DNA from: Macrophomina tecta
Lineage: Eukaryota > Ascomycota > Dothideomycetes > Botryosphaeriales > Botryosphaeriaceae
NCBI GenBank assembly: GCA_024180945.1
Contig: JAKSGN010000023.1
Location: 744,001 to 808,000 of the forward strand
Reading direction: 5' to 3'
DNA length: 64,000 nt
The notes beneath the pieces are model-generated. The model was not told the origin of the DNA and made no database searches. It saw only the letters and a list, made by a program, of their open reading frames with translations. The position numbers were made by a program, and so were the translations under genes. Shown in pieces: positions 4,362-48,686 of this stretch (its first letter is position 1; each line of letters opens with the position of its first letter).

Positions 4362-4532
4362 ATGGACGTTGAGCAAAACCAGTTAAGCCCTACTGAGCTG
4401 AAAAGAGCGCGCAACAAGCTTCTTCAGCGGCAGTATAGGGCAAGGCGTAAGCAGCAAGGAGGACTGCCTCCAACAGAGCCGAGAAAAAGAGGCCGGCCAA
4501 GGAAAACCGGTACTGAGCCCCGATCGCAATAA
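4362..4532 (+). CDS. small basic protein with AT-hook, copy A
   Basis: A 56-residue frame starts MDVEQNQLSPTELKRARN and has a basic stretch (QRQYRARRKQQ) followed by a canonical AT-hook (RKRGRPRKTG). AT-hooks bind the minor groove of AT-rich DNA, so a chromatin or DNA-binding role is likely, possibly as the N-terminal part of a longer protein. The copy at 59038-59196 keeps the same design with several substitutions. The stop TAA at 4530-4532 shares its last base with the ATG of the next ORF. Whether the two ORFs are one protein split by a frameshift, or two cistrons, cannot be settled from sequence. Confidence 0.55.
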   Translation: MDVEQNQLSPTELKRARNKLLQRQYRARRKQQGGLPPTEPRKRGRPRKTGTEPRSQ

Positions 4533-5283
4533 TGAGAGACCTTACACTGACCTGGAGTTCAGACAAGGCCGTCAATTCGGTCAGCCTCGACCAGAACGCA
4601 GATTCCAATAGCGAACAACGATCTGCTCATGTACCGATCGCCCTAGAAGAGCCGAATGGCGTTCGTAGACAATCCACACGGATGCATGATCAACGGGCCG
4701 ATACGAGCGGGACCGAGGGTCCGCATAACAGCCCTGCCGGCGATAAATCGGCTACCCCACACGAGACATCTAATCCGGATGGAAGTATCCAATTACCGGC
4801 ACAACAGAGTGACAAATTGAATCCGACCGAAGATTTCGTCTGGGATCCTCTTCTATTCGAGAGCAGAGAGTCAGCCATCGGCTTCGCTTCCCATCAGATG
4901 GCTCTACTGCAGCACAATCGCCCCTGCTACCAACACCAGTCTCAGCTCCAGACGCCAGACAGGAACCGCCTCAATTGCCTCCTTTCGCGGACTTTTTCCC
5001 GACAGACGAGTTAGCTCGTGCTCATACGAATACTCCATTCACTGCATCGGTCAACGGTTGCCAGCCAGATCGCTACGCTGGCTCTGGGATGCACAAGCAG
5101 CATTTGAACGGGGCATCTCATAGCAGGCCGCGGCCTGCGCAGTGTCAGCTTGCACCGTCAACGGTAGCAGCTGGCGTAGGAAGAGGGAGAATGGTGTTAG
5201 TTCCTCACACGACGTTATGTTTTGTTCCAGTCCAGGTCCCTTCCATTCCACTGGCCATAGACTGTGCACGTTGTAATTGGTGA
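4532..5283 (+). pseudogene. frameshifted partner ORF downstream of AT-hook ORF, copy A
   Basis: The first part (4532 to about 4900) aligns with the start of the intact 250-residue ORF at 59193-59945 (for example NADSNSEQRS and TSNPDG). Between about 4888 and 4923 this copy is one base shorter than the other, which shifts the frame. The remainder (PPFADFFPTDELARAHTNTP ... CARCNW) continues in a second frame to 5283. The protein is polar and low in recognisable domains, and no function is assigned. Confidence 0.65.
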
Positions 5284-6679
5284 CTACCAAGGGAGGGAGT
5301 GATTTTAGTGAATAGTGAGATTCAAAAAAAAAAAAAAAAAGTATTGTTGGAACATAAATCAATCAATTCGCACTGAATCTAAGTGCGGCGTCGTGCTTTT
5401 TTTCGGTCCAACAAGTATACAAGTCACTACTGTGGGACCGGCTTCTGTGGATTTCACGCCGTTGGCAGGGTTCTATGCAGGGCGGATACATCAGATCACT
5501 CCTACTTCGCCAGATCATGCAAACACATATCAGCCATCTGCGTTCTTGCTCACAGTTCATCGCTCGCTACCATTGTCTTTTCAATTGCTGGTCACCTGTG
5601 CCTGGGTCCACGCTTGGTAGACGAGAGGGATAAAACAGCGAGAGTTTTGCCTTCAGTGATTGAAGGGATAAGCTGGCTTACAAACTAAGCCAAAAGGAAA
5701 AAAAAAAAAATCAAAACTTAATCGTTGCTCCTGCTTCAATTATGCTGCTCATTGAAAATGGGAAACAACAAAATAACAAATGAGAAAAAATATCGAACAA
5801 ATATAACCCTTACAAGTCCTAGGCGGATCAGCCTCGTTGATGTCGGCCTTCAATGCACATATAAAACCTTTTGCTCGTCCCTTCCAATAATTTATCGCTG
5901 TTGCGCACTTGGATTCCTAAGATTTATATTCAAAAAAAAAGTCCAACACGCTCTCTGCACAGTATCTGCCACAATTTTTATTAGGACAGCCTATTCAAGA
6001 TGTTAGATGTTTTTCCTCAATTTTGGTAAGATGAAGCCCTCCACTATCAGTGGCTCAGCGGAAGCTAATAGACGTACGTATCCAGTGGAAGCTGCGACAG
6101 ACGGATTGATGGAGCAAACCAGAAGCTATACTGCTCTAGCCGGTACTATCTCTTGAAACTGAGAAGCGATTTTGAACTTGGCGTCCAGAAACAGGTGCAT
6201 GAGAAATGAACGTTTCTTAAGCTTTCCTCAGAGTTATAATTCCGCGGTCGTTCATCACCCTTCCCTCGAAAGCATTTCCAGGGCTCTAGGTGTTGCTCCT
6301 GTAGGTATGGAAGGGACGGCTTTCGATGTTTCGAACAGGAATGCACCTCAAATTTCTGCGAAAGGGCCATAGGGTTAGACCGCTCTGATGGCGAGCGCTA
6401 AATGCAAGTGGCCCTTTCACTCCAACAATTAAAAGAAAGGCTATTCAATGAAGAGATACTTCGCCTGTGCCCACTAAGATATTTCGTTTCGCAAGAACAG
6501 AGGCCTGTAACTGAGAGTAACCGCCCGATAACATACGCGCTGTGATCCACGCACTGGCTTTTTGTAGTTGGGATTAGGGGAAAAAAAAACTAAATAGCCG
6601 CTGATGCAGCTTCCAGTCACCCATACAAGGTTGTGCTCATTTAGAATCCGTATAACTCATTGAAGGAGAAAAAGAATTA
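5284..6679. other. 3' part of duplication copy A, no gene recognised
   Basis: It contains an A18 run at 5324-5341, a TGTTGGAA word at 5344, an A12 run near 5700 and a few short ORFs that also occur in copy B only because the two copies are almost identical. None shows a domain, so I do not call genes here. Confidence 0.5.
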
Positions 6680-10822: not shown

Positions 10823-13800
10823 ACCTCCCCCCCGGTGTGACGAAAAACCCTGTGTGCCGAAAAAAGCCCGAGGTACTTCGAGTTTGCAGCAACTTCATAG
10901 GCGTATCTATGTAGAAATTCTTATAAACTATGCTGGGAATATTCTACGCCATTTAATCTACTTGCGAAATGTTTTAAATTTAATATTACACAGGCGTGGC
11001 TGCTCCCTTACCTGATTTCTACAGGATGAGTCTTGATGCCGCGAACGATATTGCTCTACTATAGCACCACAGATGCTTTTTTCTGCTAGAAAATCTAGTT
11101 GGAGAGACGCATATATCCTCCGGTGTTATACCGCGTACTGTAATACTACTAGCAGCAGGATACGTGGTGTAGTAGGAGAGTCCGCCACGCAGGGCGGTAC
11201 TTGTCAGCGCAGCTTTGGCCAATCTCGGCTAGCCGCGATGCGCTGAGCTGTTCTTACTAAGTACGAAGACTGCGCGTAAAGCAAGATCAGCTTGTTTTTT
11301 TTACTGTTGCGAATGGAAACAGCAGCCGAGTTTACGACCTGTTCGCTTGTAGCGCACGGTCCATGTTGCAATAGCTTTACCCGATGGTTACCAGCTGATG
11401 CTGGTACGTTACAGGGGTCTAGTTCAAGGTTTTTGATTCTCGTCACTGCACGCATCATTTGATCTGTTATTCACAGCATGAAAACAAGACGCTATTAAAA
11501 AGCAGATAGATATTAAAAGTGCTGTCTAGGCTACGAAGCTTTTCTACGGAATCTTTCCTTTAGACGCATGACGATTGAGCTTTTCTTATTTCCCTGCCTG
11601 CTGCTTGCTGATTCGGATCGGGTTTCAGGACGGACGACGTCACCAACGGGTGTCCTATCGTTGTGAACCGGTTTCTGGCTTTGCTCGAGCCTAGCTTGTG
11701 TTGCTTCTTGCTGCATGGCTGAGAAGTGACTGAGACAGGCCGTAGTTGTTGGGTGCTGAGGACCGAGCGCCTGTTCGAAGCCGTTGCATGCTCGCTGGTA
11801 CAGCTCGCTTGCTTCTTCGTACCGCTGCTGTTGGTGTAAAAGATAAGCGAGGTTGTAGACAGAGATGAGCGTATGCGGGTGCCGCTCCCCCAGCTCCTTC
11901 TCCCTCCCTTCCAGCGCCCGCCGGTTCAGCTCCTCCGCCTCGCCGTACTTCCCCTGATCCCGCAGCACCATCGCCAAGTTGTTCACGCTCGTCAGCGTAT
12001 CCGGGTGCCGCTCCCCCAGCTCCTTCTCCCTCCCTTCCAGCGCCCGCCGGTGAAGCTCCTCCGCCTCGCCGTACTTCCCCTGATCCTGCAGCACGTTCGC
12101 CAGGTTACTCACGCTCGTCAGCGTTGAAGGGTGCTGTATGCCCAGCTTCTTCTCCTTCCCTTCCAGCGCCCGCCGGTTCAGCTCCTCCGCCTCGCCGTAC
12201 TTCCCCTGATCCCGCAGCACCATCGCCAAGTTGTTCACGCTCGTCAGCGTATCTGGGTGCCGCACCCCCAGCTCCTTCTCGCACCCTTCAAGCGCCCGCC
12301 GGTTCAGCTCCTCTGCCTCGCCGTACTTTCCCTGAGCCCGCAGCACGCTCGCCAGGTTGCTCACGCTCGTCAGCGTATAAGGGTGCTGCACCCCCAGCTC
12401 CTTCTGGTACCCTTCCAGCGCCCGCCGGTGAAGCTCCTCTGCCTCGCCGTACTTCCCCTGACCCTGCAGCACGCTCGCCAGGTTGCTCACGCTCGTCAGC
12501 GTAGAAGGGTGCTGCACTCCCAGCTCCTTCTCGCACCCTTCCAGCGCCCGCCGGTGAAGCTCCTCTGTCTCGCCGTACTTCCCCTGATCCTGCAGCACCG
12601 TCGCCAGGTTGCTCACGCTCGTCAGCGTATCTGGGTGCCGCACCCCCAGCTCCTTCTCGCACCTTTCAATCGCCCGCCGGTTCAGCTCCTCCGCCTCGCC
12701 GTACTTCCCCTGATCCCGCAGCACCATCGCCAAGTTGTTCACGCTCGTCAGCGTATCCGGGTGCCGCTCCCCCAGCTCCTTCTCCCTCCCTTCCAGCGCC
12801 CGCCGGTGAAGCTCCTCCGCCTCGACGTACTTCCCCTGATATCCCAGCACTAACGCCAGGTTGCTCACGCTCGTCAGTATTAATTCGTTATCTAGGCCTA
12901 ACACACGCTCTCTAACTGCGACCGCCTTTCTTGCTATCCTTTCCCCCGCCTTGTAGTCTCCTTTCATGCACATATACCACCCGACATTTGCAAGGACCTG
13001 GGCTAAGTTCTTTAGCAACTCGTCGGTCGCTGCCTCAGCGTCAAGAAGCCACTCTACATGGGGGAATAGCTGCTGACAACGGCCCCAGTTCTCAAACTCT
13101 CCAGTAGGAAACTCTCGTGCCATCAGCTCTACAAACTCTCCCTTCCACCGCTCCACCTCGCCAGACGACGACAGCCACACCCGCGTGCAGAACTGCACGA
13201 GAGCATGCATCTCACACGTGTCGGGCGCGGCCGTTTCGGCTATAAGCGAGTACGCTCGTAGAATGTCGAAGTCCTCGTTAAACGTGTCGTCAGCCTCGTC
13301 TTCGTAGCCCGGCTCTACTGCGGCTCTCCTGGACTCTCGGAGTATCGACTCCAGGATGCCTTGCGGATTAAAGAAGCTCATGAGCGACAGCAGATCAGCA
13401 GCAGAGGGCCGCTCTTGCCGGATACGCTCGAACGATATTTGCCATGTCGTCACAACCGAGTTCGATGCACTTGCGTCCCGACGCAAGTCGCCTGCGTCCC
13501 GATGTAGTAGGTTTTCTCTTTTCTTGTCGTTTGCGCGAAACTCGGCCAGATAGTCTTATATTGTCATGCGGGCTCGCCGGTTAATGTAGGCAGCAGCCTG
13601 CGTGATTGCAAGAGGCGTGTGGTCGAGAGCACGCAGCAGATCCACCGCGCCTTCTTCGGCCGACGTGTCGTGCAGCTTGTTGCGGAGAAGCTGCAAGCCC
13701 TGACTCTTATCCATCACGCGCACCTCTTTAATGTAATTATGATTTCCTACCAGCTTGAACGCCGCGTCCTTGTTCCGGGATGTGACTAGAATCGATCCGT

Positions 13801-14640
13801 TGCAGCTTTGAGGGAGGTATGTCGCCAGCGATGCCGACGCGCCTTCGAGTGGCTCGTCCTGCCCGTGCGCTCGCGATGGGAACAAAGTCTCAATATTGTC
13901 GGCGTTGTCTACGATCATCGTCCATCGCCCGTTCGCCTCGTCGCACAGCCAGTTGCTGACCAGTCGCAGAACGTCCGCTTTTGGATCGTGTCGCCCAGGA
14001 AGCGCGAGCCTGTCTGCGAGGGCTCCTGTACGCTTCTTCGAACCGGGCCCTGGTGCTGGCGTGCACCCAGAGCACGTGCGTGCGCGGCGTCGCATCGCGG
14101 ATACTATGCGCATACCGGATGGCGAGCTGCGACTTTCTTTGGTTCGTTAGCACTGCGGTATTCGAGAAGCGGACGTTGACATACCCTACGCCACCGAGGC
14201 CGACAAGCGCCGCCCGGGCGCCAGGGCCCGCGCACCTGTCGCGGATCCACGCTAAGATCTCGGGCCGGTCCACGAAGTCAGGGTCTGGGGCGAACGGGAC
14301 GTTGGAGAAGGGCTCGCGCTTGCGGGTAGGAGCATCTGTGGGCGTGTGTCAGCCACGGCTTTATGACTGTTGCTCAACGCATTCACCTCGTCCGGACGAA
14401 GCGCTGATGTGGAAGTTCGTCGTTCCGCCGGCGGCGGTGTAGGCGCCAGGAATGTTGACATGGCCGTCAAGATTTCCGTGGAAGGTGCTCATTCTCTGCT
14501 CTGCGCGCGAGGCTCACATCTGGCTCCAGTGAGGACGATGGAGTTGGGAACTTGGTGAGCTACGAGCTGAACTGTTGGCGATGCGATCCCCACTTGGCGG
14601 GGCTCAGCCGCGGTCGACGCAGCCTAGCTCGTATAACGAT
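10823..14640 (+). repeat. left arm of the long inverted repeat
   Basis: The reverse complement of this arm matches about 18555-22963. Homology covers the terminal 700 bases, the NLR coding region, both NLR introns and at least 100 bases of NLR promoter (the shared CTGCGTCGACCGCGGCTGAGCC-like block near 14600). It is shorter than the other arm because it has fewer TPR units. Confidence 0.85.
11531..14492 (-). pseudogene. NLR-1: NB-ARC/TPR protein with N-terminal amyloid-like motif, decayed
   Basis: The structure matches the intact NLR at 18783-22254: exon 1 14492-14387, exon 2 14335-14185, then 14136-11531, with introns GTGAAT...CCACAG (51 nt) and GTATGT...CAAAG (48 nt). The N-terminus begins MSTFHGNLDGHVNIPGAY and ends GGTTNFHI, a version of the motif shared with the hydrolase next door. 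A one-base insertion near 14018-14022 shifts the frame in the NB-ARC region, and CAA has become TAA at 13558-13556. Downstream, VTTWQISFERIRQERPSA and the cysteine-rich linker are kept. The TPR tract has eight near-identical 42-residue units (EAEELNRRALEG type) plus a degenerate last one. The gene cannot make a full-length receptor. It is divergent from the hydrolase gene, 617 bases away. Confidence 0.85.
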
Positions 14641-15109
14641 GAGCATCTTCCACGAGGCTTTGGAGCTACCCAGCAGGCAGCGAGCCGTATTAAAGCACCC
14701 TCCCACAGTCCGCTAGTGGTAGAGGTATGCTTAATTTGCTAAGCCTGATGATTAAGTTGAGCCGCCTGCTAAGCTCTGCTTTGTCGCTCGGTGCGTCTTG
14801 GCACTTGGGACCAGGGTGGGACAGGTCTGGGCGCGGACTGCCACGCAGTCTCGTTCCCCGCTTCGTATTCTTGCCACCCTGTCCTATCGGTATCCTGATC
14901 ATTCATGGAGGCTGCGCCATATAACTCAACCTGTTAACACTCCAATCCATCGTATGCTCTACCCAGCACTATCTACCTAATCGCATGAGTGAGCCAAGGT
15001 GTCGGCTTCTTCAACGTCGTCACCTACGTCATGACTTTCCTCAGGAAATCCGCGCACTCACCAGGGTCTCGCACTGAAGTCACTTCTGGGTCTGACACAG
15101 GAGCTAACA
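14493..15109. promoter_or_regulatory. shared divergent promoter region between NLR-1 and SesB-like gene
   Basis: This 617-base interval separates two divergent start codons. The NLR-1 side resembles the upstream region of NLR-2 (TCATCCTCACTGGAGCCAG-type and GAGCCTCGC blocks). A 16-base copy of the NLR start (ATGAGCATCTTCCACG) is present on the plus strand at 14639 but leads to no motif. Divergent control of receptor and effector is plausible but not shown. Confidence 0.45.
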
Positions 15110-16183
15110 ATGAGCTGTAAGCAGCTTGCTAGATGTCTGGCCGTTACTAATAGCGATAGATATGCGACCGATGGATCAATCGGGATCAGGGTCGTCGCTG
15201 ATCCTCCGGATGCAGTTGTTGAGTAGGAACCCCGCGGCATAGCTTCTCGCTGTACGCTGACCTGTGCTTCTAGTATCGTCTTTGTTCATGGACTCACGGG
15301 AAACCGCGACAAGACATGGACGCATCGCAACGGAATCTTCTGGCCAGGCACCCTCCTCTCGCAAGACTTTCCCCGTGCTCGCATTATGACATTCGGATAC
15401 GACGCTGACGTTGTCCGCTTCTGGACCATCGCAAGCTTAAATCGGCTAGACGACCATGCGAAGTCATTAGCGTACGCACTCCTCGATCAGCGAGCACACA
15501 TAGGCCAACGACCGATTATATTCATTGCTCACAGTCTTGGGGGCTTGGTGTGTGAGGAAGCTCTGAATCTAAGCAACAAACGACAGAACTTGGGGACCGT
15601 TCTGTCTAATACGTTAGGCATCGTGTTCATGGGTACTCCTCATGGAGGCTCACGTGTGGCAAAATGGGGAAACACTGTGGCAAGATACGTGAACATCTTC
15701 CGTGGCACAAACCAGGAGATCTTGCGAAATCTACAGCCGGGCTCCTCGGACCTGCAGAGGACTGAAGAAGACTTTCAGAATATGCTTCGGCGCGACGACA
15801 TCAAGCTCAAGATATACTGCTTCTACGAGGCTCTCAAGATGGACGACAGGATTGGCAAGATTGTGGAACGAGAGTCTGCGATACTGCCTGCATACGACAA
15901 CTGCAGCATCAATGCAGATCATCGGGACATGACAAAGTTCACCGGGAGAGCGGACCCGGGGTATGGACAGGTCCGAGGTGTGCTAGAAAGATGGATGCAG
16001 GAGTTTGAGAGTGAGGTTAGCCACTCGGATGCTAGCGAAGCGGAGAACGCATCAAAGACCAACGATAGGGCTGGCGAAAGAACTTCATATCATGGCCCTG
16101 TCTTCAACGGTGCCATCTCCGGTCGGTATGTGATCCCCGCTCACACCACCGGTGGTACGGTTACCTTCAATTTCCCTGGATGA
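15110..16183 (+). CDS. SesB-like alpha/beta hydrolase with C-terminal amyloid-like motif
   Basis: Two exons, 15110-15222 and 15274-16183, are joined by a 51-nt intron (donor GTAGGA, branch GCTGAC, acceptor TTCTAG), giving 340 residues. Splicing creates the family signature AVVDIVFVHGLTGNRDKTW. The nucleophile elbow is AHSLGG, followed by GIVFMGTPHGG; the likely catalytic histidine lies in NADHRDMTKF. After a polar linker (SDASEAENASKTNDRAG) the protein ends in FNGAISGRYVIPAHTTGG then TVTFNFPG, matching the N-termini of both NLRs. In the known fungal sesB systems a lipase-like effector is activated when an NLR templates its amyloid motif, leading to cell death. Here effector and NLR share a locus and a motif, which supports that role. 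The start has A at -3; an alternative upstream exon cannot be excluded. Confidence 0.85.
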
Positions 16184-16680
16184 TCCAGACGCGTTCAGTA
16201 GTCAATGCTAGTCTATCCATTTGTGCATCTTACGATCATGCGAGCAGCGAACATTGTTCCATCAAGGTAGTTAGTCATCTCAGCTGGCTTTCCAGCTGGG
16301 ACTTGTATTGCAACCGGCTTGCTCGGTATACCCCCAAACCCAAGTGCTGCTGTTGTTCGACAGGCCCACGATCACAGTCCTCATCCTCTGCCAGCATTCT
16401 GTTCTGTCTAGTGTTCATAGCCGAATTGATGAGTATGAATAACAGCTTGACGATACGTGTATGACAAAATGCCTAACAACAGGTACGAGGTATTGACGGC
16501 AGATTTGGCTGCGTAATGCGTAAGGCGAAGAAATTCTATAGTGTTCCGGTACTTTCTTTGTAAAGCACTGGCGAGACAGTTGACGCCTCTGTTCGCGCTC
16601 TCCGGTATAACTAGTTCACCCACCGCCTTTAATCCTTATAGTGCAGTTGTTTTACGTTGTGTACAGTTGGCTTGTCCATA
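16184..16680. other. intergenic between SesB-like gene and transposase
   Basis: The interval should hold two convergent 3' ends. I searched it and 18370-18560 for matching inverted repeats that would make the transposase a separate nested transposon and found none by eye. Confidence 0.45.
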
Positions 16681-18366
16681 TCAAACACCCCCGCAAAATT
16701 TCAGAACAGAGCAGTAACCCCCCAGCCCTAGTGCCTGGATCTCATCCTCTGCAGCTTCCGCTTCGCTCTTCCTTTTCCTTTTGGCCTGCGCTACTGCCGG
16801 CGTAGCGCTTTTGCGCTTGGGACCGCGTTTCCCCTTGACCACTGCAGCTTCTTTCGCATCACGCTTCGCCTGTGCTTCAACGATATCCTCATAGCTCATC
16901 ACTTTTGCCTTCCCGACTACTGTTGACCTACCCGATTTACGGCGATTGCTTTCGTTGTTCTGCTCGAACAAGAGCCGATTCTCGTCGAGAAGGAGGGCGC
17001 GTTCGGCAAAGGATTTATGAGCAGCATCCACCAGCTTCCGTAGGCGTTGTCTGCTCGGACCATCGAGCGCACGAATGTCCTGCTCGATTCTGTCATGTAG
17101 CAAACTGAGGGCCTCTGACGTCACTGGCGTTTGGAGTTCATCGCCTCGCGGACAAGAACCCGCATTCACCTCGTCTTCCTGAGGAATACGAAGCTCGGCT
17201 AGTGGCTTCTGGATTCCTCGGAGTACCTTGTCTGGGCTGAACGGATACAAACCTGCCTTTGCCCAGCCTGACTTGATGTTCCGCGGGGTAAGTGCCTGTT
17301 CCCGTGCACGGCTATAGAGAGACGTGAAATGCTGCTTGCCAACTGTGTTTGCACCTCCGCGATACAATCGTTCAACCTGTTCGCGATACGCCGCCTTGAG
17401 TGGGCCAAAGACTCCGACATCACAGGGCTGGAGCTTATGAGAGGTGTGAGATGGGATGCGGCAGAGGATGATATTGTTCTCAAAACAATATTGCATGACC
17501 TCGAGCGACTCGTGTGTCCCGAAGCCATCACAGATCAGGATACGTGGCTTCTGGTTCGCCTGTGACTTGGTCTGCGGGTCAAACACATGCTTGACCCAGT
17601 CCAAGCTGATTCTGGAATCGGTATACCCAGACTGGGAACATGCAAAACGCCATCCAGGAGTGGGATGCGTAGTCCATGTGTTTCGATGGGTTGCCGCTGG
17701 CCAGATAACTAGTGGATAGAGAGACCTACCATCTGCAGAAATGCACTCAATTGCTGTCACGGTCATGCGCTTGACGCCCGCACCCCTGTAGGTTCGCAGG
17801 TCATCCTTACTTACCAGGACCTTAAGGGAAGCGAGCATGCTTAACATGACACCCGTTTCGTCCATGTTGTAGACATTCTCCGGCACAATGACGGGATCAT
17901 GTAGCTCCTTCCCGATGATCTCAAACCAGTGCGATATCTTATCGTGGATGTTATTATCGTGTCGATTCCAGTCCAGCGCCTTGACCCTTTTCGCTTTAAG
18001 CTCGGGATGGCGACTGCAGAAGGCCTGCGGCCAGTTCTTGCCTGGATGGCGGATCGTTTCGTCCGTCGCAGGAGCTTGGAAGACGGAGGAGCGCTGACGT
18101 GCAATGACGAGCGCTAGCGAACGTAGGTACTTGAGTGGAACGGGAAAGCCGTTGTTAGACATTCGTAACAGGTATTCAACAAGGGCCTTCTCTTCCGAAG
18201 GGCTGAGGTACTGTTGACTCTTTGCTTTATCTTCCCTCGAGGGCCGTCCGTGTGCGCGGTGCCACAGCGTAGAGATAGGGACATTACTGGACTCTGATAG
18301 GGCAGTATACGTTTTAGGTTTCGAGGGTCCAAGGCCTTCGGACAGCACAGCACTGGCGGGATCCAT
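16681..18366 (-). CDS. pogo/Fot-type DDE1 transposase inside the 12-kb element
   Basis: The likely start is the methionine of MDPASAVLSEGLGPSKPKTY at 18366, giving about 561 residues; the frame is open to 18693, but that extension overlaps DNA shared with the NLR promoter and is probably not coding. Parts in order: a helix-turn-helix (psq-like) N-terminus, a CENP-B-type second HTH beginning LSPSEEKALVEYLLRMSNNG, then the DDE1 core with acidic positions in NVYNMDETGVM, ILICDGFGTHES and HKLQPCDVGVFGPLK. The C-terminus is very basic (GKRGPKRKSATP and AKRKRKSEAEA), a likely nuclear signal. All catalytic residues are present and the frame is uninterrupted. No private terminal repeats are visible, so it may be the transposase of the whole 12-kb unit. 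Confidence 0.85.
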   Translation of the reverse strand: MDPASAVLSEGLGPSKPKTYTALSESSNVPISTLWHRAHGRPSREDKAKSQQYLSPSEEKALVEYLLRMSNNGFPVPLKYLRSLALVIARQRSSVFQAPATDETIRHPGKNWPQAFCSRHPELKAKRVKALDWNRHDNNIHDKISHWFEIIGKELHDPVIVPENVYNMDETGVMLSMLASLKVLVSKDDLRTYRGAGVKRMTVTAIECISADGRSLYPLVIWPAATHRNTWTTHPTPGWRFACSQSGYTDSRISLDWVKHVFDPQTKSQANQKPRILICDGFGTHESLEVMQYCFENNIILCRIPSHTSHKLQPCDVGVFGPLKAAYREQVERLYRGGANTVGKQHFTSLYSRAREQALTPRNIKSGWAKAGLYPFSPDKVLRGIQKPLAELRIPQEDEVNAGSCPRGDELQTPVTSEALSLLHDRIEQDIRALDGPSRQRLRKLVDAAHKSFAERALLLDENRLLFEQNNESNRRKSGRSTVVGKAKVMSYEDIVEAQAKRDAKEAAVVKGKRGPKRKSATPAVAQAKRKRKSEAEAAEDEIQALGLGGYCSVLKFCGGV

Positions 18367-18782
18367 TCTACGATGCTGATCATGATGGGGGGTGAGAGTC
18401 AAGCTGCAGCGCCAGGCAGCAGACTCAGAGACCACGTGGCTGGATTGGCCTATCGATGCTTCTAGAATTCTTCCGCGACTCGCTTTTCGGCATGAAGAAA
18501 ATCCGAACTCATTGTGAAGAACAATACTAGAAGCATTGCCTTGTTGCACGGCGTAAGAAAATATCGCCTCCATCATAACGTCTGATGCTATGGTTAGCCA
18601 TGAGCAGCTTTTGAAGCCTAGTAGATGAGGCCCGTCGTTACACAAGCCAGGATGTGTCGACTGCGGCTGAGCCCCCGGCGGCGAGGCTGACATGGTCAGC
18701 AGCTCAGCTCAGGGCCCTTGGGTTTTCTGACTCCATCATCCCTCACCGGAGTCAGGCGCGAGCCTCGCTTTGAAGGCAGAAA

Positions 18783-21700
18783 ATGAGCATCTTCCAGGGA
18801 AATCTTGACGGCCAGTTTGTTATCCCTGGCACCCACACCTCAGCCGGCGGAACGACCAATTTTAACTTCGGCTATCCGCCGGGGCAAGGTAAATACGCTA
18901 ACCGACAGCCAGCAGCCCGCACCTCGAGGCTAACACAGGCCCATAGATGCCTCGACCCAGAAACGCGAGCCCTTCTCTACCGTCCCGTTCGCCCCAGACC
19001 CTGACTTTGTGGATCGGCCCGAGATCTTAGCGTGGATCCGCGACAGGTGCGCGGGCCCTGGCGCTCGGGCGGCGCTCGTCGGGCTCGGTGGCGTGGGGTA
19101 TGTCAACGTCTACTTCTCGAGTATCGCAGTGCTAACGATCCGAAGAAAGTCGCAGCTCGCCATCCAGTATGCGCATAGCATCCGCAATGCGACGCCGTAT
19201 ACGTATGTGTTCTGGGTGCACGCCAGCACCTGGGCTCGGTTCGAAGAAGCGTACAGGAGCCTCGCAGACAAGCTCGCGCTTCCAGGACGATACGATCCAA
19301 AGGCGGACGTTCTGCGGCTAGTCAGCAACTGGCTATGCGACGAGACGAACGGGCGATGGACGATGATCGTGGACAACGCCGACGATGTCGAGACGTTCTT
19401 TCCCTCGCGACCGCGCGGGCAGGGCGAGCCACTCGAAGGTAGGACGGCATCGCTGGCGACATACCTCCCTCAGAGCTACAACGGATCGATTCTAGTCACA
19501 TCCCGGAACAAGGACGCGGCGTTTAGGCTAGTAGGAAATTATAATTATATTAAGGAGGTGCGCGTGATGGATGAGAGTCAGGGCTTGCAGCTTCTCCGCA
19601 ACAAGCTGCGCGACACGTCGGCCGAAGAAGGCGCGGTAGATCTACTACGTGCTCTCGACCACACGCCTCTTGCAATCACGCAGGCTGCTGCCTACATTAA
19701 CCGGCGAGCCCGGATGACAATACAAGACTATCTGGCCGAATTTCGCGCAAACGACAAGAAAAGGGAAAACCTACTATATTGGGACGCAGGCGACTTGCGT
19801 CGGGACGCAAGTGCATCGAACTCGGTTGTGACGACATGGCAAATATCGTTCGAGCGCATCCGGCAAGAGCGGCCCTCTGCTACCGATCTGCTGTCGCTCA
19901 TGAGCTTCTTTAATCCGCAAGGCATTCTAGAGTCGATACTCCGAGAGTCCAGGAGAGCTGCAGTAGAGCCGGGCTACGAAGACGAGGCTGACCACACGTT
20001 TAACGAGGACTTCGACATTCTACGAGCGTACTCGCTTATAGCCGAAATGGCCGCGCCCGACACGTGTGAGATGCATGCTCTCGTGCAGTTCTGCACGCGG
20101 GTGTGGCTGTCGTCGTCTGGCGAGGTGGAGCGGTGGAAGGGAGAGTTTGTAGAGCTGATGGCACGAGAGTTTCCTACTGGAGAGTTTGAGAACTGGGGCC
20201 GTTGTCAGCAGTTATTCCCCCATGTAGAGTGGCTTCTTGACGCTGGGGCAGCGACCGATGAGTTGCTAAAGAACTTAGCCCAGGTCCTTGCAAATGTCGG
20301 GTGGTATATGTGCATGAAAGGAGACTACAAGGCGGGGGAAAGGGTAGCAAGAAAGGCGGTCGCAGTTAGAGAGCGTGTGTTAGGCCTAGATAACGAATTA
20401 ACACTGACGAGCGTGAACAAACTGGCGTTGGTGCTGGGGGATCAGGGGAAGTACGGCGAGGCGGAGGAGCTTCACCGGCGGGCGCTGGAAGGGAGGGAGA
20501 AGGAGATGGGGGAGCGGCACCCGCATACGCTAACGAGCGTGAACAACCTGGCGAACGTGCTGGGGGATCAGGGGAAGTACGACGAGGCGGAGGAGCTGAA
20601 CCGGCGGGCGCTGGAAGGGAGGAAGAAGGAGCTGGGGGAGCGGCACCCGGATACGCTGACGAGCGTGAACAACTTGGCGATGGTGCTGGGGGATCAGGGG
20701 AAGTACGGCGAGGCGGAGGAGCTTCAGCGGCGGGCGCTGGAAGGGAGGGAGAAGGAGCTGGGGGAGCGGCACCCGGATACGCTGACGAGCGTGAGCAACC
20801 TGGCGTCGGTGCTGCGGGGTCAGGGGAAGTACGGCGAGGCGGAGGAGCTTCACCGGCGGGCGCTGGAAGGGAGGGAGAAGGAGCTGGGGGAGCGGCACCC
20901 GGATACGCTGACGAGCGTGAGCAACCTGGCGTCGGTGCTGCGGGGTCAGGGGAAGTACGGCGAGGCAGAGGAGCTGAACCGGCGGGCGCTGGAAGGAAAG
21001 GAGAAGGAGCTGGGGGAGCGGCACCCTTCAACGCTGACGAGCGTGAACAACCTGGCGGGCGTGCTGGGGGATCAGGGGAAGTACGGCGAGGCGGAGGAGC
21101 TTCACCGGCGGGCGCTAGAAGGGAGGGAGAAGGAGCTGGGGATGCGGCACCCGGATACGCTGACGAGCGTGAACAACCTGGCATTGGTGCTGGGGGATCA
21201 GGGGAAGTACAGCGAGGCGGAGGAGCTTCAGCGGCGGGCGCTGGAAGGGTACGAGAAGGAGATGGGGGAGCGGCACCCGCATACGCTAACGAGCGTAAGC
21301 AACCTGGCGTTGGTGCTGCGGGGTCAGGGGAAGTACGGCGAGGCGGAGGAGCTTCAGCGGCGGGCGCTAGAAGGGAGTGAGAAGGAGCTAGGGGAACGGC
21401 ACCCGCATACGCTGACGAGCGTGAACAACCTAGCGGGCGTGCTGGGGGATCAGGGGAAGTACGGCGAGGCAGAGGAGCTTCACCGGCGGGCGCTGGAAGG
21501 GAAGGAGAAGGAGATGGGGGAGCGGCACCCTTCAACGCTAACGAGCGTGAACAACCTAGCGGGCGTGCTAGGGGATCAGGGGAAGTACGGCGAGGCGGAG
21601 GAGCTTCACCGGCGGGCGCTGGAAGGGAGGGAGAAGGAGCTGGGGAAGCGGCACCCGCATACGCTGACGAGCGTAAACAACCTGGCGAACGTGCTGGGGG

Positions 21701-22254
21701 ATCAGGGGAAGTACGACGAGGCGGAGGAGCTTCACCGGCGGGCGCTGGAAGGGAGGGAGAAGGAGCTGGGAGAGCGGCACCCGGATACGCTAACGAGCGT
21801 AAACAACTTAGCGATGGTGCTGCGGGATCAGGGGAAGTACGGCGAGGCGGAGGAGCTGAACCGGCGGGCGCTAGAAGGGAGTGAGAAGGAGCTAGGGGAG
21901 CGGCACCCGCATACGCTCATCTCTATCTACAACCTCGCTTATCTTTTACACCAACAGCAGCGGTACGATGAAGCAAGCGAGCTATACCAGCGAACATACA
22001 ACGGCTTCAAACAGGCGCTCGGTCCTCAGCACCCAACAACTACGGCCTGTCTCAATCACTTCTCAGCCGTGCAGCAAGAAGCAACACAAGCTAGGCTCGA
22101 GCAAAGCCAGAAACCGGTTCACAACGATAGGACACCCGTTAGTGACGTTGTCCGTCTTAAACCCCGATCCGAGTCAGCAAGCAGCAGGCAGGGAAATAAA
22201 AAAAGCTCAATCGTCATGCGTCTAAAGGAAAGATTCCGTAGAAAAGCTTCGTAG
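18783..22254 (+). CDS. NLR-2: intact amyloid-motif/NB-ARC/TPR receptor
   Basis: Three exons: 18783-18888, 18947-19097 and 19146-22254, 1121 residues. Intron 1 is 58 nt (GTAAAT, branch GGCTAAC, CATAG). Intron 2 is 48 nt (GTATGT, branch GCTAAC, CCGAAG) and in frame; its removal rebuilds the Walker A motif GLGGVGKSQLA. Residues 1-30 carry FQGNLDGQFVIPG and GGTTNFNF, shared with the hydrolase C-terminus. FAPDPDFVDRPEIL leads into NB-ARC with Walker B-like WTMIVDNADD, SILVTSRN and the GLxPL-equivalent DHTPLAITQAAAYI. Residues from about 470 form twelve near-identical 42-residue TPR units (LTSVNNLA...GKYGEAEELHRRALEG...GERHP) and a degenerate thirteenth. The C-terminus is basic (MRLKERFRRKAS). It is expected to oligomerise on ligand binding and nucleate the motif of the SesB-like effector. 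Confidence 0.9.
20395..21990 (+). repeat. 126-bp tandem repeats encoding TPR units of NLR-2
   Basis: Twelve head-to-tail units of 126 bp encode 42-residue TPR/Kinesin-light-chain-type repeats. Units are nearly identical in DNA, with variation concentrated at a few codons (for example N/S after LTSV, the residue before VL, H/N/Q after EEL). This implies recent homogenisation. The decayed copy has eight units at about 11840-12890. Confidence 0.9.
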
Positions 22255-22965
22255 CCTAGACAGCACTTTTAATATCTATCTACTTTTTAATAGCGTCTTG
22301 TTTTCATACTGTGAATAACAGATCGAATAATGCGTACAGTAACGAGAATCAAAGGCCTTACTAGACCCCTATAACGTACCAGCATCAGCTGGTAACCATT
22401 GGGTAAAGCTATTACAACATGGACCGTGCGCTACAAGCGAACAGGTCGTAAAGTCGGCTGCTGTTTCCATTCGCAACAGTAAAAAAAAACAAGCTGATCT
22501 TACTTTACGCGCAGTCTTCGTACTTAGTAAGAACAGCTCAGCGCATCGCGGCTAGCCGAGATTAGCCAAAGCTGCGCTAACAAGTACCGCCCTACGTGGC
22601 GGACTCTCCTACTACACCACGTATCCTACTACTAGTAGTATTACAGTACGCGGTATAACACCGGAGGATATATGCGTCTCACCAACTAGATTTTCTAGTA
22701 GAAAAAAGCATTGGTGGTACTATAGTAGAGCAATATCGTTCGCAGCATCAAGACTCATCCTATAGAAATCAGGTAAGGGAACAGCCACGCCTATATAATA
22801 TTAAATTTAAAACATTTCGCAAGTAGATTAAACGGCCGTAGAATATTCCCAGCATAGTTTTATAAGAATTTCTACATAGATACGCCTATGAAGTTGCTGC
22901 AAACTCGAAGTACCTCGGGCTTTTTTCGGCACACAGGGTTTTTCGTCACACCGGGGGGGAGGTTA

Positions 22966-36062: not shown

Positions 36063-36443
36063 GGCCGACCTGCGTGGCGGATTCGCCTTCCGCACCACGC
36101 ACCTTATTATTGATAGCATACCGGCATTATGACATGATTTCCAATATCCATCAGTGTCCTGTAGAGGTTTTCTGGAGAATAGAAAAGCCAATAGTGGTGT
36201 TATAGAAGAGAAATACAGCTTGTGGCGTCAATGCGTACTTTGTAGGAACCCTGCAAGAGAACAACAGCCTTACTGTAATTTAATAGATCAAAAAAGCTCA
36301 AGTATTGAGATGTAGCTATGAAACCCACTGAAGGTAGTTTTCCAAGCATATCAGCAGAGTCGCATCTTCTATATTGCTTGCAACTTGAAGTACCTCGGTC
36401 ATTTTTCGGTACATAGGGTTTTTCGTTACACTGGGGGGGAGGT
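36063..36443 (+). mobile_element. single transposon end of the ACCTCCC family
   Basis: From CCGACCTGCGTGGCGGATTCGCC onward the sequence is nearly identical to the right 380 bases of the element ending at 50936 and ends in GGGGGGAGGT followed by TA (36444-36445). No opposite end is present nearby, so this is a truncated element joined directly to the glutamine synthetase fragment. Confidence 0.85.
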
Positions 36444-36482: not shown

Positions 36483-36646
36483 TGATGGAATTTGCGCTTG
36501 ATCGGTCGGAATCGATGAATGAATGACTTGATTGCTTCGTTGTTGAGGCGCTCGTGGTATTGATCCCCAAGACGTCTCAGAATGAATGACTAAGCTAATA
36601 TACTATCCAATAGAATAACGGAGGTGATTGAGCTCATTTTCCATCA
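36483..36646 (-). repeat. copia 3' LTR
   Basis: On the plus strand it starts TGATGGAATTTGCGC and ends CATTTTCCATCA. The GATGGAA/TTCCATC ends form the short inverted repeat. Identical by eye to 41490-41653. A purine stretch (GGAGGGTGTG on the minus strand) just inside is the likely polypurine tract. Confidence 0.95.
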
Positions 36647-36735
36647 CACCCTCCAGATCAATTACCTCCGGACTGATTGCTAAATAAGGAAGGTGGTGAT
36701 ATAAGAGCAGAACAATAAAATATAGAATCAATACC

Positions 36736-39700
36736 TTACAATTTGGGTTGCTTATAAAGTCCAATTTGATTAACAAAGCGTCCAAACTTCAATTTGGATA
36801 ATGGTTTAGTGAGCATGTCGGCAATCATATGCTCAGTTGGGACGTAGTTCAATTTGATCTTTCCCTTTTCGACTTGCTGGCGAATGAAGTGATATTGTGT
36901 CTCAATATGTTTGATCCTGGAGTTGTCTTTCCGGTCAGGTCGAGTGAGACTGATTGCAGGTTGATTGTCGCCATTCATTTGGATTGGTGATAAGTCAGAT
37001 CCATGATATCCAAGTTCATTGAGGAGATTCTTGATCCAGAGAGCTTCCTTTGCAGCGAGGGTCATTGCCACGTATTCAGCTTCAGTGGATGATGTAGCCA
37101 CATTGCTTTGCTTGGTTGATTTGAACGAGATGGGTCCTCCGGCAGCCAGGAATATGTATCCTTGAGTACTGACCCGATTCTCCTTATTGTCAGCATAAGC
37201 AGCATCACTAAATCCTTGAATGTTTAATTGATTGTCCTTGGAGGCTTGGAATCTGATTGAGAGATCTGGGTTGCCTTTTAAATATCTGAGAATCCGATAG
37301 GCAGCATCCAGATGAAATTCTGAAGGATTATGGGTGAACTGACAGAGCTTGTGAGTTGCATAAGTAATGTCAGCTCGTGTCATGTTCGCCGCATATCCAA
37401 TTGATCCGATGAGAGATTGATATTCATTGATCAGGTTGATTGGGGCTTGTCCTTCAACTCTTGGTGCGAGTGAAGCTCCAGATAGTTCCATTGGTGTTGA
37501 TATTGGTTTGCAATTCTCCATGTGATGCCTAGATAGGATTTTTTGAATATAGGACTCTTGACTGATCCACATTGTTCTGCGTGGGCGATCTCTGATAATT
37601 CTCATGCCGAGATAGTGATGAATTGGTCCCAAATCACGTAGTTCGTATTTTGTTGACAATTGATTCTTCATGAGACTAATCATGTTCTTGTCCTTGTGAA
37701 TAAGGATCAAGTCATCCACGTAGACAATAATGATTCCCTTGCTCTGAGCATGCTGGAATACGCAGGAATCTGATTCCAGTGGGAAATATTGAATTGTTGC
37801 GAGATATCGAGTGATCTCCTGTTGCCAGATGCGTGGTGCTTGCTTCAATCCATATAGTGCCTTCCGAAGATGTGCAACGAGATTGGTTCCATTCGGTTGA
37901 CCTTCGAATCCAGGAGGAAGTGCCATATAGACATCGTCCTTGTCGATTTTGCCGTTAATGAATGCTGAAGAGATATCCAATTGGTGGCATTCGAGATCCA
38001 GAATTGTGACGAGTGCCATGATGATCTTGAAGGTGGCTGGCTTAACGACTGATGCAAAGGTTTCAAGATAGTCAAGTCCGGGGCGTTGCTTATCTCCTCT
38101 GATACAAAGTCTTGCCTTGCAGGAGGCGAGATTTCCGGTTGAATCAGTTTTATACTTGAAGACCCAGGTACAGGGCAAGATTCTGGCTGAATCGGGTGGC
38201 TCGGTGAGAGTCCAAGTGCCGTTCTTCTTGTGTTGATCGATTTCCTTAGTGGCAGCTCGAATCCAATGATCCTTAAGAGGATGATTCATGGCTTCAGTCC
38301 AGTCTCGTGGTTCTGGTGGTAGGTCCTTGATTTTGGGCGTGTGATCCAGCCCGATGGAAAAACAATATGCCGTGATTGGTGGTAGAATTGACAGAACGGT
38401 ACGTGGGCGTCCAGGTTTACCGGTGCGTGCTTCCATAATTCTTCGATAAGTTTGGCCCTTCTCTGTCTGAATCTTCGGGCGTGATGATTTTCGAATTAGG
38501 GTAGGCTGGCTCGATTCTTCTTGGTTGGCTACAGGTGTTAAAGTCGAAGGTGATTCTGATGATTCTGATAGTTGGTCTTGGTCACTGATTGGTGGCAGAC
38601 GTTGTTCTGCATCCGAAAGTGGTAGAGATTCGATTGAAGATTGGCGTGTCATTCCAAGATCAGGTAATTCGGGCAGATCGAAGGTGCTAGTTGATCTAGG
38701 CGAGTCTAGCTGATCTTGAATTCGAAGAGCTTGTTGGGCAATTGATTGGAGTCGATCTATTTGATCATGATCCTCTGGTTGCTGAGATTCGATTTGATGC
38801 TGAGATTCCGTTGATTGATTCCGGTACAAATCTGATGGAGTTCCACCCTCCGAATCGAGAGGGAGTCTAACGTATTCGATTGTAGGATCCTCCTCGTCCG
38901 AGAGATCCTCATTTGGGACATTGGGAAGGTCCAGATTCGATTCATTGAATGTGACATGAGAGCTTCTAATGACAGCACGCTTGCTGGGTAAGTAGATGCG
39001 GTAGATGTTCTCTCCCTCATATCCGATGAGATTTCCTTTCTGAGCTCTGAGCTCGAGCTTGTTTCCTTGGGTTCTTCGTTGCTTTGGAACATGGACGTAG
39101 GCAGTGCAGCCAAAGGTCCTCCAATTGGTGATATTGGGAAGAGTATTTGATATTTCCAGCTTCTCGCAGAGCGACTGATATGGGGTCTTAGAATCCTTGT
39201 TGATTCTGGTGGGTGTCCGATTGACAATCTTGATTGCGGTATTCAAGGTTTCTGGCCAGAGAAATGAGGGTAGTCTGGCATCCTGAAGCATTGATCTGAT
39301 TCGTGTTTCAATGATGTGGTTGGCTTTCTCAGCCTTACCATTCTGTTCGGGTGTATAGGGTACTGAAACTTCAAGCTTGATGCCTTTCGCAGTGCAGTAG
39401 GCTCGGAGTTGATTCATCGCAAATTCTCGACCATCATCAATTCGAATTCGTTTTGGGTAGTTCCCGGTCTGAGTATTCCACATCTCAATGTGATCCTTGA
39501 GCGTGTCAAATGCATGATATTTCTTCTTGAATGGGTAGCCCCAGCGGAACGTGGTTGCGTCATCAGTTGTGAGGAGAAAATAGCGTTCGCCGTGCATTCC
39601 AGGAGTAGACATCTGAACAGTATCGACATGGAATTCACCTGGTTCAGAGGCACGTCGTTGCTTCTCGTGGCTGATGTTCCTTTGTGATTTGGTGAGGGCA

Positions 39701-41232
39701 CAGATCTCGCAGTTGCCTCGTTCTCCAGTAAGTTGATACCCAAGCTGCTGGGCTAGTATCCGGCAGGCCTGAAATGATGCATGTCCCATTCGTTGATGTA
39801 GAAGATTGATATCGATCTTGATTGGTGAGATTGGAAGGAGTAATTGACGGTGTTGCGTTTCAGATCCGTTGCCGATAGCAATAATTCGAGGGCTAAAAAA
39901 GCCGAGCTCCTTGTTATAAGGCGTGTACATGATTTCGTCACCTGATGGGGTGTAGAATCCGGGTTTGTTTGATCCATGGAAGAAGAGTTGATTGCCTTTC
40001 CGTTCATAGAAGATCCGAGAGGAAATCGTGCTAATTGGCAAGTCGGGAGTATAGAGGACATACTGGATAGTCCGTGTGATCTTGTCATTCTTGGAATCCA
40101 GGTAGGTGAGTTGGATTGTTCCTCTGCCAAGAACTCTGATTGGTCCTCCTCCTGTATTGATCTCACTTGGTAAGGTATCTTGGACGTCTAAGAATGCTTC
40201 TCGATTATTGCAGCAGTGATAGTAGGCTCCAGTATCAACAATGAAGTAATTACGGAACCATTCCTTGGACTTGGTGGAGACTGTGAGAGGTAATTGCAGG
40301 ATTGCCATGTGATTCAAAGCTCCTGATTTCGTATCAGGCTTCACATTAGGCTGATCTTTGGATTGAGAGGCATGGTATTCGTTGACAAGTTTCTGATTGG
40401 GGACAAATGATCCTCCTCTTGACAATTCAGGATGTAGGTGGAAGCACCTCTCCGTTCGATGAGGTCCATTGCAGCAGAGGCATTTCTGCTGATTCGGTTG
40501 ATTCGGTTGATTCGTAGTATTAGACTGATTGGACTTTGTTCCTCGCTTGATAATATTGACTTGTGAATTCGGAAGAAGCATGTTGCGCTTGTTCTCATCG
40601 ATGATCTGATTGATGAGGTCTTGAAGCTTGATTTTCTCGTTGTTGCGAAGTGATTGGCGCTTAGCCGTAACCCATGCGTCAAAATATTGGTCCAGCTTGG
40701 CGAGTAATTCGTAGACTGCTGTCTCAGATGGTAGCTTAAGGCCAGATTGGATACAGTCTGTCCAGGCTGCACTATATTTTCGCAGAAAGGTTTCGAGATT
40801 CGTGGTAGGATCATAGGTCATTTTGGTCCAAATTGAGAAGTAGATTGATTGCTGGACGGGACCTTCTCCTTCGAATTTAGAATTAATGTCGTCCCACATT
40901 CCTTTCGAAGTTGAAAAAGTGGACAGGGAACGAAGATAGTCCATATGTACGGTCATCTTGATTGCGTAGATTGCCTTGGCATCCCTGGTGATCCAGTCCT
41001 TATACCGTTTGAGCTTGCGCTCGTACTTGGCAAGGGCTGTCTCTTCCAGAGCGTCTTCCTCTTCAGGCTTCAGACGTTCTTGCTTTGGTGGTTGTGCAAG
41101 ATCGCCGTTGACAATCTCCCAAAGATCCTCTCTCTTGAAGTATCCTTCCAATAAGGACCTCCATTGTAGATAGTTCCTTGAGCTGATGAGCTTTGGGACA
41201 GTCCCAAGCTCCTTGGTCGACGATTCGGTCAT
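36736..41232 (-). CDS. copia Gag-Pol polyprotein
   Basis: One uninterrupted frame of 1498 residues. Residues about 1-240 are the Gag/UBN2-type capsid region. A zinc knuckle follows (CLCCNGPHRTERC, one residue shorter than canonical CCHC). The protease has FIVDTGAYYHCC. The GAG pre-integrase zinc region has LLHQRMGHASF and CEICALTKSQR. The integrase DDE core shows HVDTVQ, IRIDDGREFA and PYTPEQNGKAEKANHII. Reverse transcriptase shows HQLDISSAFINGKI and IIIVYVDDLILIH. RNase H shows GFSDAAYADNKE and ATSSTEAEYVAM. All catalytic residues that I can check are present. Gag and Pol are in one frame without a visible frameshift or stop, as in many copia elements. With identical LTRs this suggests recent activity. 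Confidence 0.97.
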   Translation of the reverse strand: MTESSTKELGTVPKLISSRNYLQWRSLLEGYFKREDLWEIVNGDLAQPPKQERLKPEEEDALEETALAKYERKLKRYKDWITRDAKAIYAIKMTVHMDYLRSLSTFSTSKGMWDDINSKFEGEGPVQQSIYFSIWTKMTYDPTTNLETFLRKYSAAWTDCIQSGLKLPSETAVYELLAKLDQYFDAWVTAKRQSLRNNEKIKLQDLINQIIDENKRNMLLPNSQVNIIKRGTKSNQSNTTNQPNQPNQQKCLCCNGPHRTERCFHLHPELSRGGSFVPNQKLVNEYHASQSKDQPNVKPDTKSGALNHMAILQLPLTVSTKSKEWFRNYFIVDTGAYYHCCNNREAFLDVQDTLPSEINTGGGPIRVLGRGTIQLTYLDSKNDKITRTIQYVLYTPDLPISTISSRIFYERKGNQLFFHGSNKPGFYTPSGDEIMYTPYNKELGFFSPRIIAIGNGSETQHRQLLLPISPIKIDINLLHQRMGHASFQACRILAQQLGYQLTGERGNCEICALTKSQRNISHEKQRRASEPGEFHVDTVQMSTPGMHGERYFLLTTDDATTFRWGYPFKKKYHAFDTLKDHIEMWNTQTGNYPKRIRIDDGREFAMNQLRAYCTAKGIKLEVSVPYTPEQNGKAEKANHIIETRIRSMLQDARLPSFLWPETLNTAIKIVNRTPTRINKDSKTPYQSLCEKLEISNTLPNITNWRTFGCTAYVHVPKQRRTQGNKLELRAQKGNLIGYEGENIYRIYLPSKRAVIRSSHVTFNESNLDLPNVPNEDLSDEEDPTIEYVRLPLDSEGGTPSDLYRNQSTESQHQIESQQPEDHDQIDRLQSIAQQALRIQDQLDSPRSTSTFDLPELPDLGMTRQSSIESLPLSDAEQRLPPISDQDQLSESSESPSTLTPVANQEESSQPTLIRKSSRPKIQTEKGQTYRRIMEARTGKPGRPRTVLSILPPITAYCFSIGLDHTPKIKDLPPEPRDWTEAMNHPLKDHWIRAATKEIDQHKKNGTWTLTEPPDSARILPCTWVFKYKTDSTGNLASCKARLCIRGDKQRPGLDYLETFASVVKPATFKIIMALVTILDLECHQLDISSAFINGKIDKDDVYMALPPGFEGQPNGTNLVAHLRKALYGLKQAPRIWQQEITRYLATIQYFPLESDSCVFQHAQSKGIIIVYVDDLILIHKDKNMISLMKNQLSTKYELRDLGPIHHYLGMRIIRDRPRRTMWISQESYIQKILSRHHMENCKPISTPMELSGASLAPRVEGQAPINLINEYQSLIGSIGYAANMTRADITYATHKLCQFTHNPSEFHLDAAYRILRYLKGNPDLSIRFQASKDNQLNIQGFSDAAYADNKENRVSTQGYIFLAAGGPISFKSTKQSNVATSSTEAEYVAMTLAAKEALWIKNLLNELGYHGSDLSPIQMNGDNQPAISLTRPDRKDNSRIKHIETQYHFIRQQVEKGKIKLNYVPTEHMIADMLTKPLSKLKFGRFVNQIGLYKQPKL

Positions 41233-41475
41233 TATTACGGTCGGAACGGTCGTTCGTCGTTAGAGATTTAATTCGGTAATTCAGTTGATGCGCCCGATAG
41301 GCTGATTAGTCGTTCTCATCGTTTGAGAGACGATTGAGATGGCTTGCGTTGATGCTTGAATTGATGCGATGAGTGCTCGTCCAATAAACGGCCTCGGATG
41401 CGCCGGATTCGGCAGTATTCAGTAGAAATTGATTCTGAGTGATTGCGACCGATCAGGCTATTGCTTGAGCGCCAT

Positions 41476-41489
41476 CCGGGCTCATAACC
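41476..41489 (-). promoter_or_regulatory. copia primer binding site, internal tRNA-iMet type
   Basis: Directly inside the 5' LTR the minus strand reads GGTTATGAGCCCGG. Its complement, CCGGGCTCATAACC, resembles the anticodon arm of initiator tRNA-Met rather than the tRNA 3' end. Drosophila copia is known to prime from a tRNA-iMet fragment at an equivalent sequence. Confidence 0.65.
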
Positions 41490-48633: not shown

Positions 48634-48686
48634 TAGCCAGCGCGGGTGTAAGAAAGTAAGCTGACTCAAATTTACGCATACCACTA

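Follow-up and report, generated by a model that had tools for sequence, protein, structure and literature searches.

Why the NOD-like receptor (NLR) and incompatibility genes of fungi are so numerous, scattered, and strain-specific is an open question, and one locus of Macrophomina tecta raises it in concrete form: can a receptor and its effector travel together inside a DNA transposon? The locus lies in a 64,000-nucleotide stretch of contig JAKSGN010000023.1 (here C21; assembly GCA_024180945.1), referred to below as the window, which spans C21:744001–808000 in a genome of 54.1 Mb and 37 contigs; all genome searches reported here are limited to this single genome. A first-pass annotation of the window had proposed that an immune-like module of NLR and SesB-like genes is carried there as cargo by a DNA transposon, which might spread it between loci or genomes and make it addictive or self-marking. 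The carriage as such is supported by the presence of four complete copies, each bordered by TA, identical in cargo type, and inserted at an unrelated place, together with an empty site for one of them (copy B). Overall, the sequence makes it probable that a cut-and-paste transposon of the pogo/Fot1 type carries a two-part cell-death signaling set as a fixed component.

The element, its copies, and their insertion sites

Window positions 10823 to 22963 are a 12.1-kb DNA transposon that encodes its own transposase, of the DD35D pogo/Fot1 type, and the identification of this interval and its constant cargo as a transposon with carried genes is well supported. The identical inverted ends that had been claimed at these two positions, each beside TA, were borne out, as the 16-mer ACCTCCCCCCCGGTGT is found there in exact inverted copies with TA directly outside both, and it proved to be the tip of terminal inverted repeats (TIRs) of about 480 bp or more (Table 1). 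The same ends had been noted at four other places in the window. These sites are real, with the 16-mer exact or with one mismatch at 36428, 47686, 50921, and 63032, and they can now be identified as the two ends of a 3.25-kb element, one end of a miniature inverted-repeat transposable element (MITE), and a lone right end. Six sites in the window compare with 0.24 expected by chance, and six were reached in none of 100 shuffles. TA duplication in all four copies, TIRs, and a transposase with DDE_1 and helix-turn-helix (HTH) domains and a DD35D triad are the features of the pogo/Fot1 type. In self-alignment, the two arms of the element (end repeat plus NLR gene) are inverted duplicates of about 3.8 kb and about 90% alike, around a core of SesB and transposase; the two NLR genes are accordingly inverted duplicates of each other, which had not been noted in the first reading.

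Searching the genome with the left repeat gave at least 34 matches, 31 of them on C21, and these include four facing pairs of ends 11 to 14 kb apart, all on C21, that is, four complete copies (A to D, the window element being copy C); an end repeat at C21:1487825–1488290 had no partner in this search. Genome searches with SesB, the transposase, and the NLR nucleotide-binding region showed constant gene order and orientation in all four (NLR, SesB, transposase, NLR). Their 2-kb flanks are unrelated, except for matches of 36 bp and one of 266 bp, the latter from another transposon next to B and D. A query made of the joined flanks of copy B aligned over 406 bp through the junction at C10:652076–652428, where a single TA is present; no continuation past the 5-kb element described below was found at this empty site. 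The corresponding match for copy A is shorter: it covers 143 bp (87%), of which just 29 bp lie to the left of the junction.

A genome search with the nucleotide-binding (NB) region of the NLRs, in which the best candidates were scored, yielded 14 rows, comprising the eight element genes at 80–100% (one split over two rows) and five others, the best at 35–36%; all eight matches of at least 80% are the eight NLR genes inside copies A to D. For SesB, four complete close copies were found, all inside the elements, in addition to decayed ones on C10 and C18, and the next best matches reached 34–37%. The C10 relic keeps pieces of SesB and transposase, and the C18 relic keeps pieces of SesB, NLR, and end repeat. 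Two observations had been named in advance as fatal to the cargo proposal, namely, related strains with the cargo block at this locus but no end repeats, and copies elsewhere whose ends never coincide with the cargo; neither was seen in this one genome, where only the decayed C10 and C18 pieces lie outside the elements. The two NLRs of one element are each other's nearest relatives in three of the four elements, copy A being the exception, and this pairing suggests gene conversion. A signature of repeat-induced point mutation was not seen between the copies (GC content, 0.54–0.56; TpA/ApT, 0.88–0.96; transition/transversion ratio, 1.8–2.2), and no TTAGGG repeats occur within 300 bases of the start or 332 bases of the end of C21.

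Receptors, effector, transposase, and a shared motif

Two NLR genes, one SesB-like effector gene, and an intact pogo-type transposase gene had been predicted inside the element. The gene set and the intact transposase stand, but only one of the two receptors is whole. In the spliced model of NLR2 (splice models were built for the window copy only), the Walker A motif GLGGVGKS is created at the second splice, and the first 278 residues score 28.8 bits against NB-ARC (cut-off, 23.5), with NACHT just under its own cut-off. The raw NLR frames match tetratricopeptide repeat (TPR) models, including TPR_12 and TPR_10, as well as DUF7779. An NB domain with Walker A and near-identical TPRs that vary in number and have few hypervariable positions are the features of NB-ARC/TPR NLRs. 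The best-scoring named relatives are from Curvularia, Plenodomus, and Ophiobolus, which we take to be Dothideomycetes. NLR2 (window 18934–22251) also scores 630 bits against NCBIfam NF040586, a bacterial FxSxx-COOH TPR model.

The 352-residue SesB model matches full-length relatives, such as Melanomma P0127, and its reading frame is open in all four copies. Its best-scoring named relatives are from Melanomma, Lindgomyces, and Delitschia, presumably also Dothideomycetes. The transposase frame of the window copy is open over 675 codons, and its triad is intact (D169, D280, and D316, the second and third separated by 35 residues); the frame is likewise open in copies B and D. Talaromyces, Pseudogymnoascus, and Penicillium are among the best-scoring named sources of transposase relatives. 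Neither the transposase nor SesB had a PDB sequence match at E up to 0.01.

Receptor and effector are linked by a common motif. It stands at the N terminus of all eight NLRs (such as MSIFQGNLDGQFVIPGTHTSAGGTTNFNF), and a like motif ends SesB in all four copies (such as VFNGAISGRYVIPGAHTTGGTVTFNF). When the motif pairs were compared with 2000 shuffles, seven of the eight were never matched, and that of NLR1 in the window copy was matched by 18. On comparison by eye, 10 of 13 SesB relatives and four of seven NLR relatives (Curvularia, two Plenodomus, and Fusarium falciforme) retain the motif; an NLR relative from Talaromyces has a different motif, called Ses_B by Pfam. Also by eye, the motif shared by the element's NLRs and SesB resembles the sigma pattern GxGxQFNxx/GGTQNINT given in a portion of PMC3321046, with no Pfam match. 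Shared terminal motifs in adjacent genes correspond to the layout of fungal NLR-to-effector amyloid signaling described in passages of PMC3321046 and PMC5485727, a layout that the sequences support well.

Table 1. Features of the window element (window positions) and its complete copies on C21 (contig positions)
Feature	Position	Strand	Basis or remark
Copy A	C21:200745–214612		13,868 bp; facing end repeats, TA both sides
Copy B	C21:429565–442326		12,762 bp; facing end repeats, TA both sides
Copy C (window element)	C21:754823–766963		12,141 bp; facing end repeats, TA both sides
Copy D	C21:934253–945227		10,975 bp; facing end repeats, TA both sides
Left TA, target-site duplication	10821–10822		Bases next to end
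Left TIR	10823–11302	+	480 bp as query; homology to right arm continues into NLR; 96% to right repeat
Left arm (end repeat + NLR1)	10823–14660		Self-alignment of copy C; inverted duplicate of right arm
NLR1 (NB region, DUF7779, TPR), broken	11534–14492	-	Frame change and in-frame stop in NB region
NLR1 array of 126-bp (42-aa) TPR units	11721–13028	-	Repeat analysis
NLR1 N-terminal signaling-type motif	14409–14492	-	Motif comparison
SesB-like alpha/beta hydrolase, 352 aa	15031–16183	+	Spliced model (3 exons; introns 15117–15159 and 15223–15273), full-length relatives, Pfam
SesB C-terminal motif copy	16100–16174	+	Motif comparison
Pogo/Fot1-type transposase, 561 aa from likely start	16684–18366	-	DDE_1 and HTH_Tnp_Tc5
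Right arm (end repeat + NLR2)	18614–22963		Self-alignment of copy C
NLR2, 1121 aa	18783–22254	+	Spliced model (3 exons; introns 18889–18946 and 19098–19145)
NLR2 N-terminal motif copy	18783–18869	+	Motif comparison
NLR2 array of 126-bp TPR units	20275–22086	+	Repeat analysis
Right TIR	22482–22963	-	Match to left repeat
Right TA, target-site duplication	22964–22965		Bases next to end

Selection on the cargo and competing explanations

Judged from ratios of nonsynonymous to synonymous change (dN/dS; simple NG86 counts over four copies) of 0.05–0.14 in all six pairs, SesB is under purifying selection. Ratios for the NLR NB region are 0.16–0.29 in all 28 pairs, the broken NLR1 of copy C included, and those for the transposase are 0.09–0.21 in five pairs and 0.42 for A–B, in which A is broken. 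The TPR arrays hold 2 to 22 anchors per gene, and among the 61 units that fit the search pattern (of about 80 anchors, the remainder left out), the most variable of the 42 positions are 9, 16, 22, 26, 32, 36, 39, and 40. The ratio of nonsynonymous to synonymous changes is 8.9 at these eight positions and 0.3 elsewhere, with the caveat that the positions were picked by variability, so that 8.9 is biased upwards. Variation at few positions matches the regime described for fungal NLR repeats in the part of PMC4986451 available to us.

A mechanism can be proposed on these grounds. The NLRs would sense a ligand via fast-diversifying TPR arrays and then oligomerize, their N-terminal motifs would template the like motif at the C terminus of the SesB-like lipase, and the templated lipase would kill or damage the cell. 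The element may still be mobile, the motif may form amyloid and SesB may kill, and the benefit, whether to host, element, or both, may lie in non-self recognition.

Decay of the cargo, seen in the broken NLR1 of the window copy and in the C10 and C18 relics, would also fit a cargo that was captured once and is selected at the level of transposition only, a passenger with no immune role of its own. We consider this unlikely, given that SesB is open throughout and has a lower dN/dS than the transposase in four of six pairs (three of them involving the broken copy A; equal in one pair and higher in one), that the TPR units vary at few positions, and that every copy retains the motif match between receptor and effector. 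The elements could instead sit inside larger Starships and be moved along with these, and the genome does hold 43 matches to DUF3435 (the Starship captain type), one cluster of which lies at C21:635 kb. None of the 43, however, falls within copies A to D, which have inverted-repeat ends with TA and a DDE transposase inside, and copy B has its own empty site; Starship membership was rejected by the DUF3435 test and is very improbable. Less credible still is that a single ancestral locus on an accessory chromosome was multiplied by segmental duplication. All four copies do lie on one 1.57-Mb contig, which also has another large duplication (C21:812463–821500 and 1395816–1404852, 99.96% identical), but homology ends at the TIR/TA boundaries in all four, with no homologous flanks in 2 kb on each side beyond the short matches given above, the copy B empty site is clean, and there are relics on C10 and C18. 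The least probable explanation, that an ordinary NLR-SesB cluster which does not move as a unit became enclosed by chance between two small-transposon insertions, can appeal to the frequency on C21 of MITEs and other small elements that end in these tips, but it is contradicted by the single-TA empty site of copy B, and against it also stand the same order and ends of all four enclosed clusters in unrelated flanks, the transposase sitting between the cargo genes inside the element, and the confinement of NB-region matches of at least 80% to the elements. Comparison of flanks and empty sites led to the rejection of both chance enclosure and segmental duplication.

Several points nevertheless weigh against a transposon that carries a working signaling set. 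Joined-flank searches of this genome found no empty site for copies C and D; the copies are too diverged (82–87% DNA identity over the best aligned stretch) to show a recent jump; copy A has a broken transposase; and the true mobile element could be the 3.25-kb one, whose tips are alike. In the window copy, the break in NLR1 leaves NLR2 as the only whole receptor. An attempt to assign the motif to a Pfam family failed, as the amyloid-motif models gave no match to the motif peptides at E up to 10 (HMMER filters drop weak matches) and NACHT_sigma had no match anywhere in the genome, and the SesB-like label stands for an alpha/beta-hydrolase class (DUF676 and others). In addition, the dN/dS ratios come from elementary counting on few copies, and purifying selection may reflect host benefit.

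With the same cargo in four of four copies, it seems that small DNA transposons can transport modules of self/non-self recognition in fungi. A small, self-contained transposon with receptor and effector would offer a direct route to numerous, scattered, and strain-specific NLR and incompatibility genes, and it raises the question of whether the module serves the fungus or the element.

Related elements and known systems

A sister transposon of 7.6 to 8.1 kb, with a transposase 67% identical, is TA-flanked at two different sites, C21:815235–823365 and C6:30904–38481, and carries a HET-NACHT protein followed by WD40 repeats, the HET-NACHT and WD40 parts being in two frames. Its C21 copy holds a nested 424-bp insert, a third copy lies at C21:1398584 within the 99.96% segmental duplication, and DUF3435 matches at C6:28239–29706 adjoin the C6 copy. 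Furthermore, a 5.0-kb TA-flanked element that combines a related transposase with a MAPEG-family gene is present at C21:927514–932515 and again at about C21:442433–447434, identical where compared; the two lie near copies D and B, respectively. Cargo therefore varies within this transposase clade, and at least two of its families carry NLRs. A provisional element at C21:902521–912313, for which a repeat match is the one sign of the right end, encloses a chromate transporter gene as well as a related transposase. At C29:3147000–3154500, near the contig end, two NLR genes flank a transposase remnant, a TPR NLR fragment on one side and a PNP_UDP/NB-ARC/TPR NLR on the other. A HET-domain gene (C21:215642–217411) has the right end of copy A on one side and a copy of the 5-kb transposon on the other, and the interval in which it lies is bounded by 116-bp inverted repeats (86%).

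Within the window, the 3.25-kb element (47686–50936) has tips like those of the 12-kb element and a transposase only about 30% identical, and a 992-bp MITE (62056–63047) and a lone right end (36065–36443) bear the tips of the 12-kb element as well. A Copia-type retrotransposon (36483–41653) adjoins the lone right end; its 164-bp end stretches are identical to each other, and it has an open frame of 1507 codons. Direct repeats at 4460–6232 and 59121–60891 lie 54.66 kb apart, 84–100% identical by segment.

Among known systems, the ses locus of Nectria haematococca (SesA, SesB, and het-eN) likewise has a SesB hydrolase beside a STAND/NLR gene with a common terminal motif, as described in a portion of PMC3321046, and its sequenced 9-kb region contains symmetrically arranged inverted repeats of 32–290 bp, according to the pertinent section of PMC516043. 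It differs in its receptor and gene content, het-eN being of the NACHT/ankyrin type and accompanied by SesA, whereas the present receptors are NB-ARC/TPR; in addition, that section names no transposase, and the stem "transpos" is absent from PMC516043. It is possible, although we put it forward tentatively and with more doubt than belief, that a pogo-type transposon clade made receptor-effector cell-death modules a core part, much like bacterial mobile elements with defense systems. Two sister families with unrelated NLR classes (NB-ARC-TPR with SesB, and HET-NACHT-WD) would then be instances of it, the multicopy, gene-converting, TPR-diversifying receptors could form a mobile allorecognition or anti-rival system kept for persistence of the element, and the inverted repeats of Nectria ses (the sigma determinant) could be what is left of a comparable carrier.

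Classical Fot1 elements measure about 2 kb and are not known to carry cargo, whereas the present element reaches 11–14 kb and its inverted ends extend over about 480 bp or more. It shares with Fot1/pogo elements the TA target, the inverted ends, DDE_1 with HTH, and DD35D, the pogo groups having a spacing of DD33–40 in the part of PMC7325037 concerned. In the NWD2/HET-S and PNT1/HELLP/SBP systems, too, the N-terminal motif of an NLR equals the C-terminal motif of an effector encoded by an adjacent gene; they differ in that the present motif has no HET-s, PP, or sigma model assignment, and a transposon carrier for the known pairs is not mentioned in the excerpted text of PMC5485727. ToxhAT, a 14-kb transposon bearing ToxA, is in the partial source a carrier of DNA-transposon size with a fungal gene of interest, but it is of the hAT type (judged by name) and has other cargo. 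NLR genes are already known as Starship cargo (PMC9815663, in a passage citing Gluck-Thaler 2022), and an excerpt of PMC12134995 describes a Starship with one sesA-NACHT-WD NLR and gives a Starship size range of 15–700 kb. Starships resemble the present element as fungal mobile DNA bearing NLR genes, but they are larger and use a tyrosine recombinase according to these partial sources, whereas the present element has a DDE transposase, inverted ends, TA, and a length of 11–14 kb, and each of its four complete copies holds a receptor together with an effector. No description of a pogo-type carrier of an NLR-effector pair was found among the titles and starts of abstracts listed in searches of open-license literature. 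NLR cargo as such is already familiar from Starships, and what may be new here is a small pogo-type carrier of a matched NLR-effector set.

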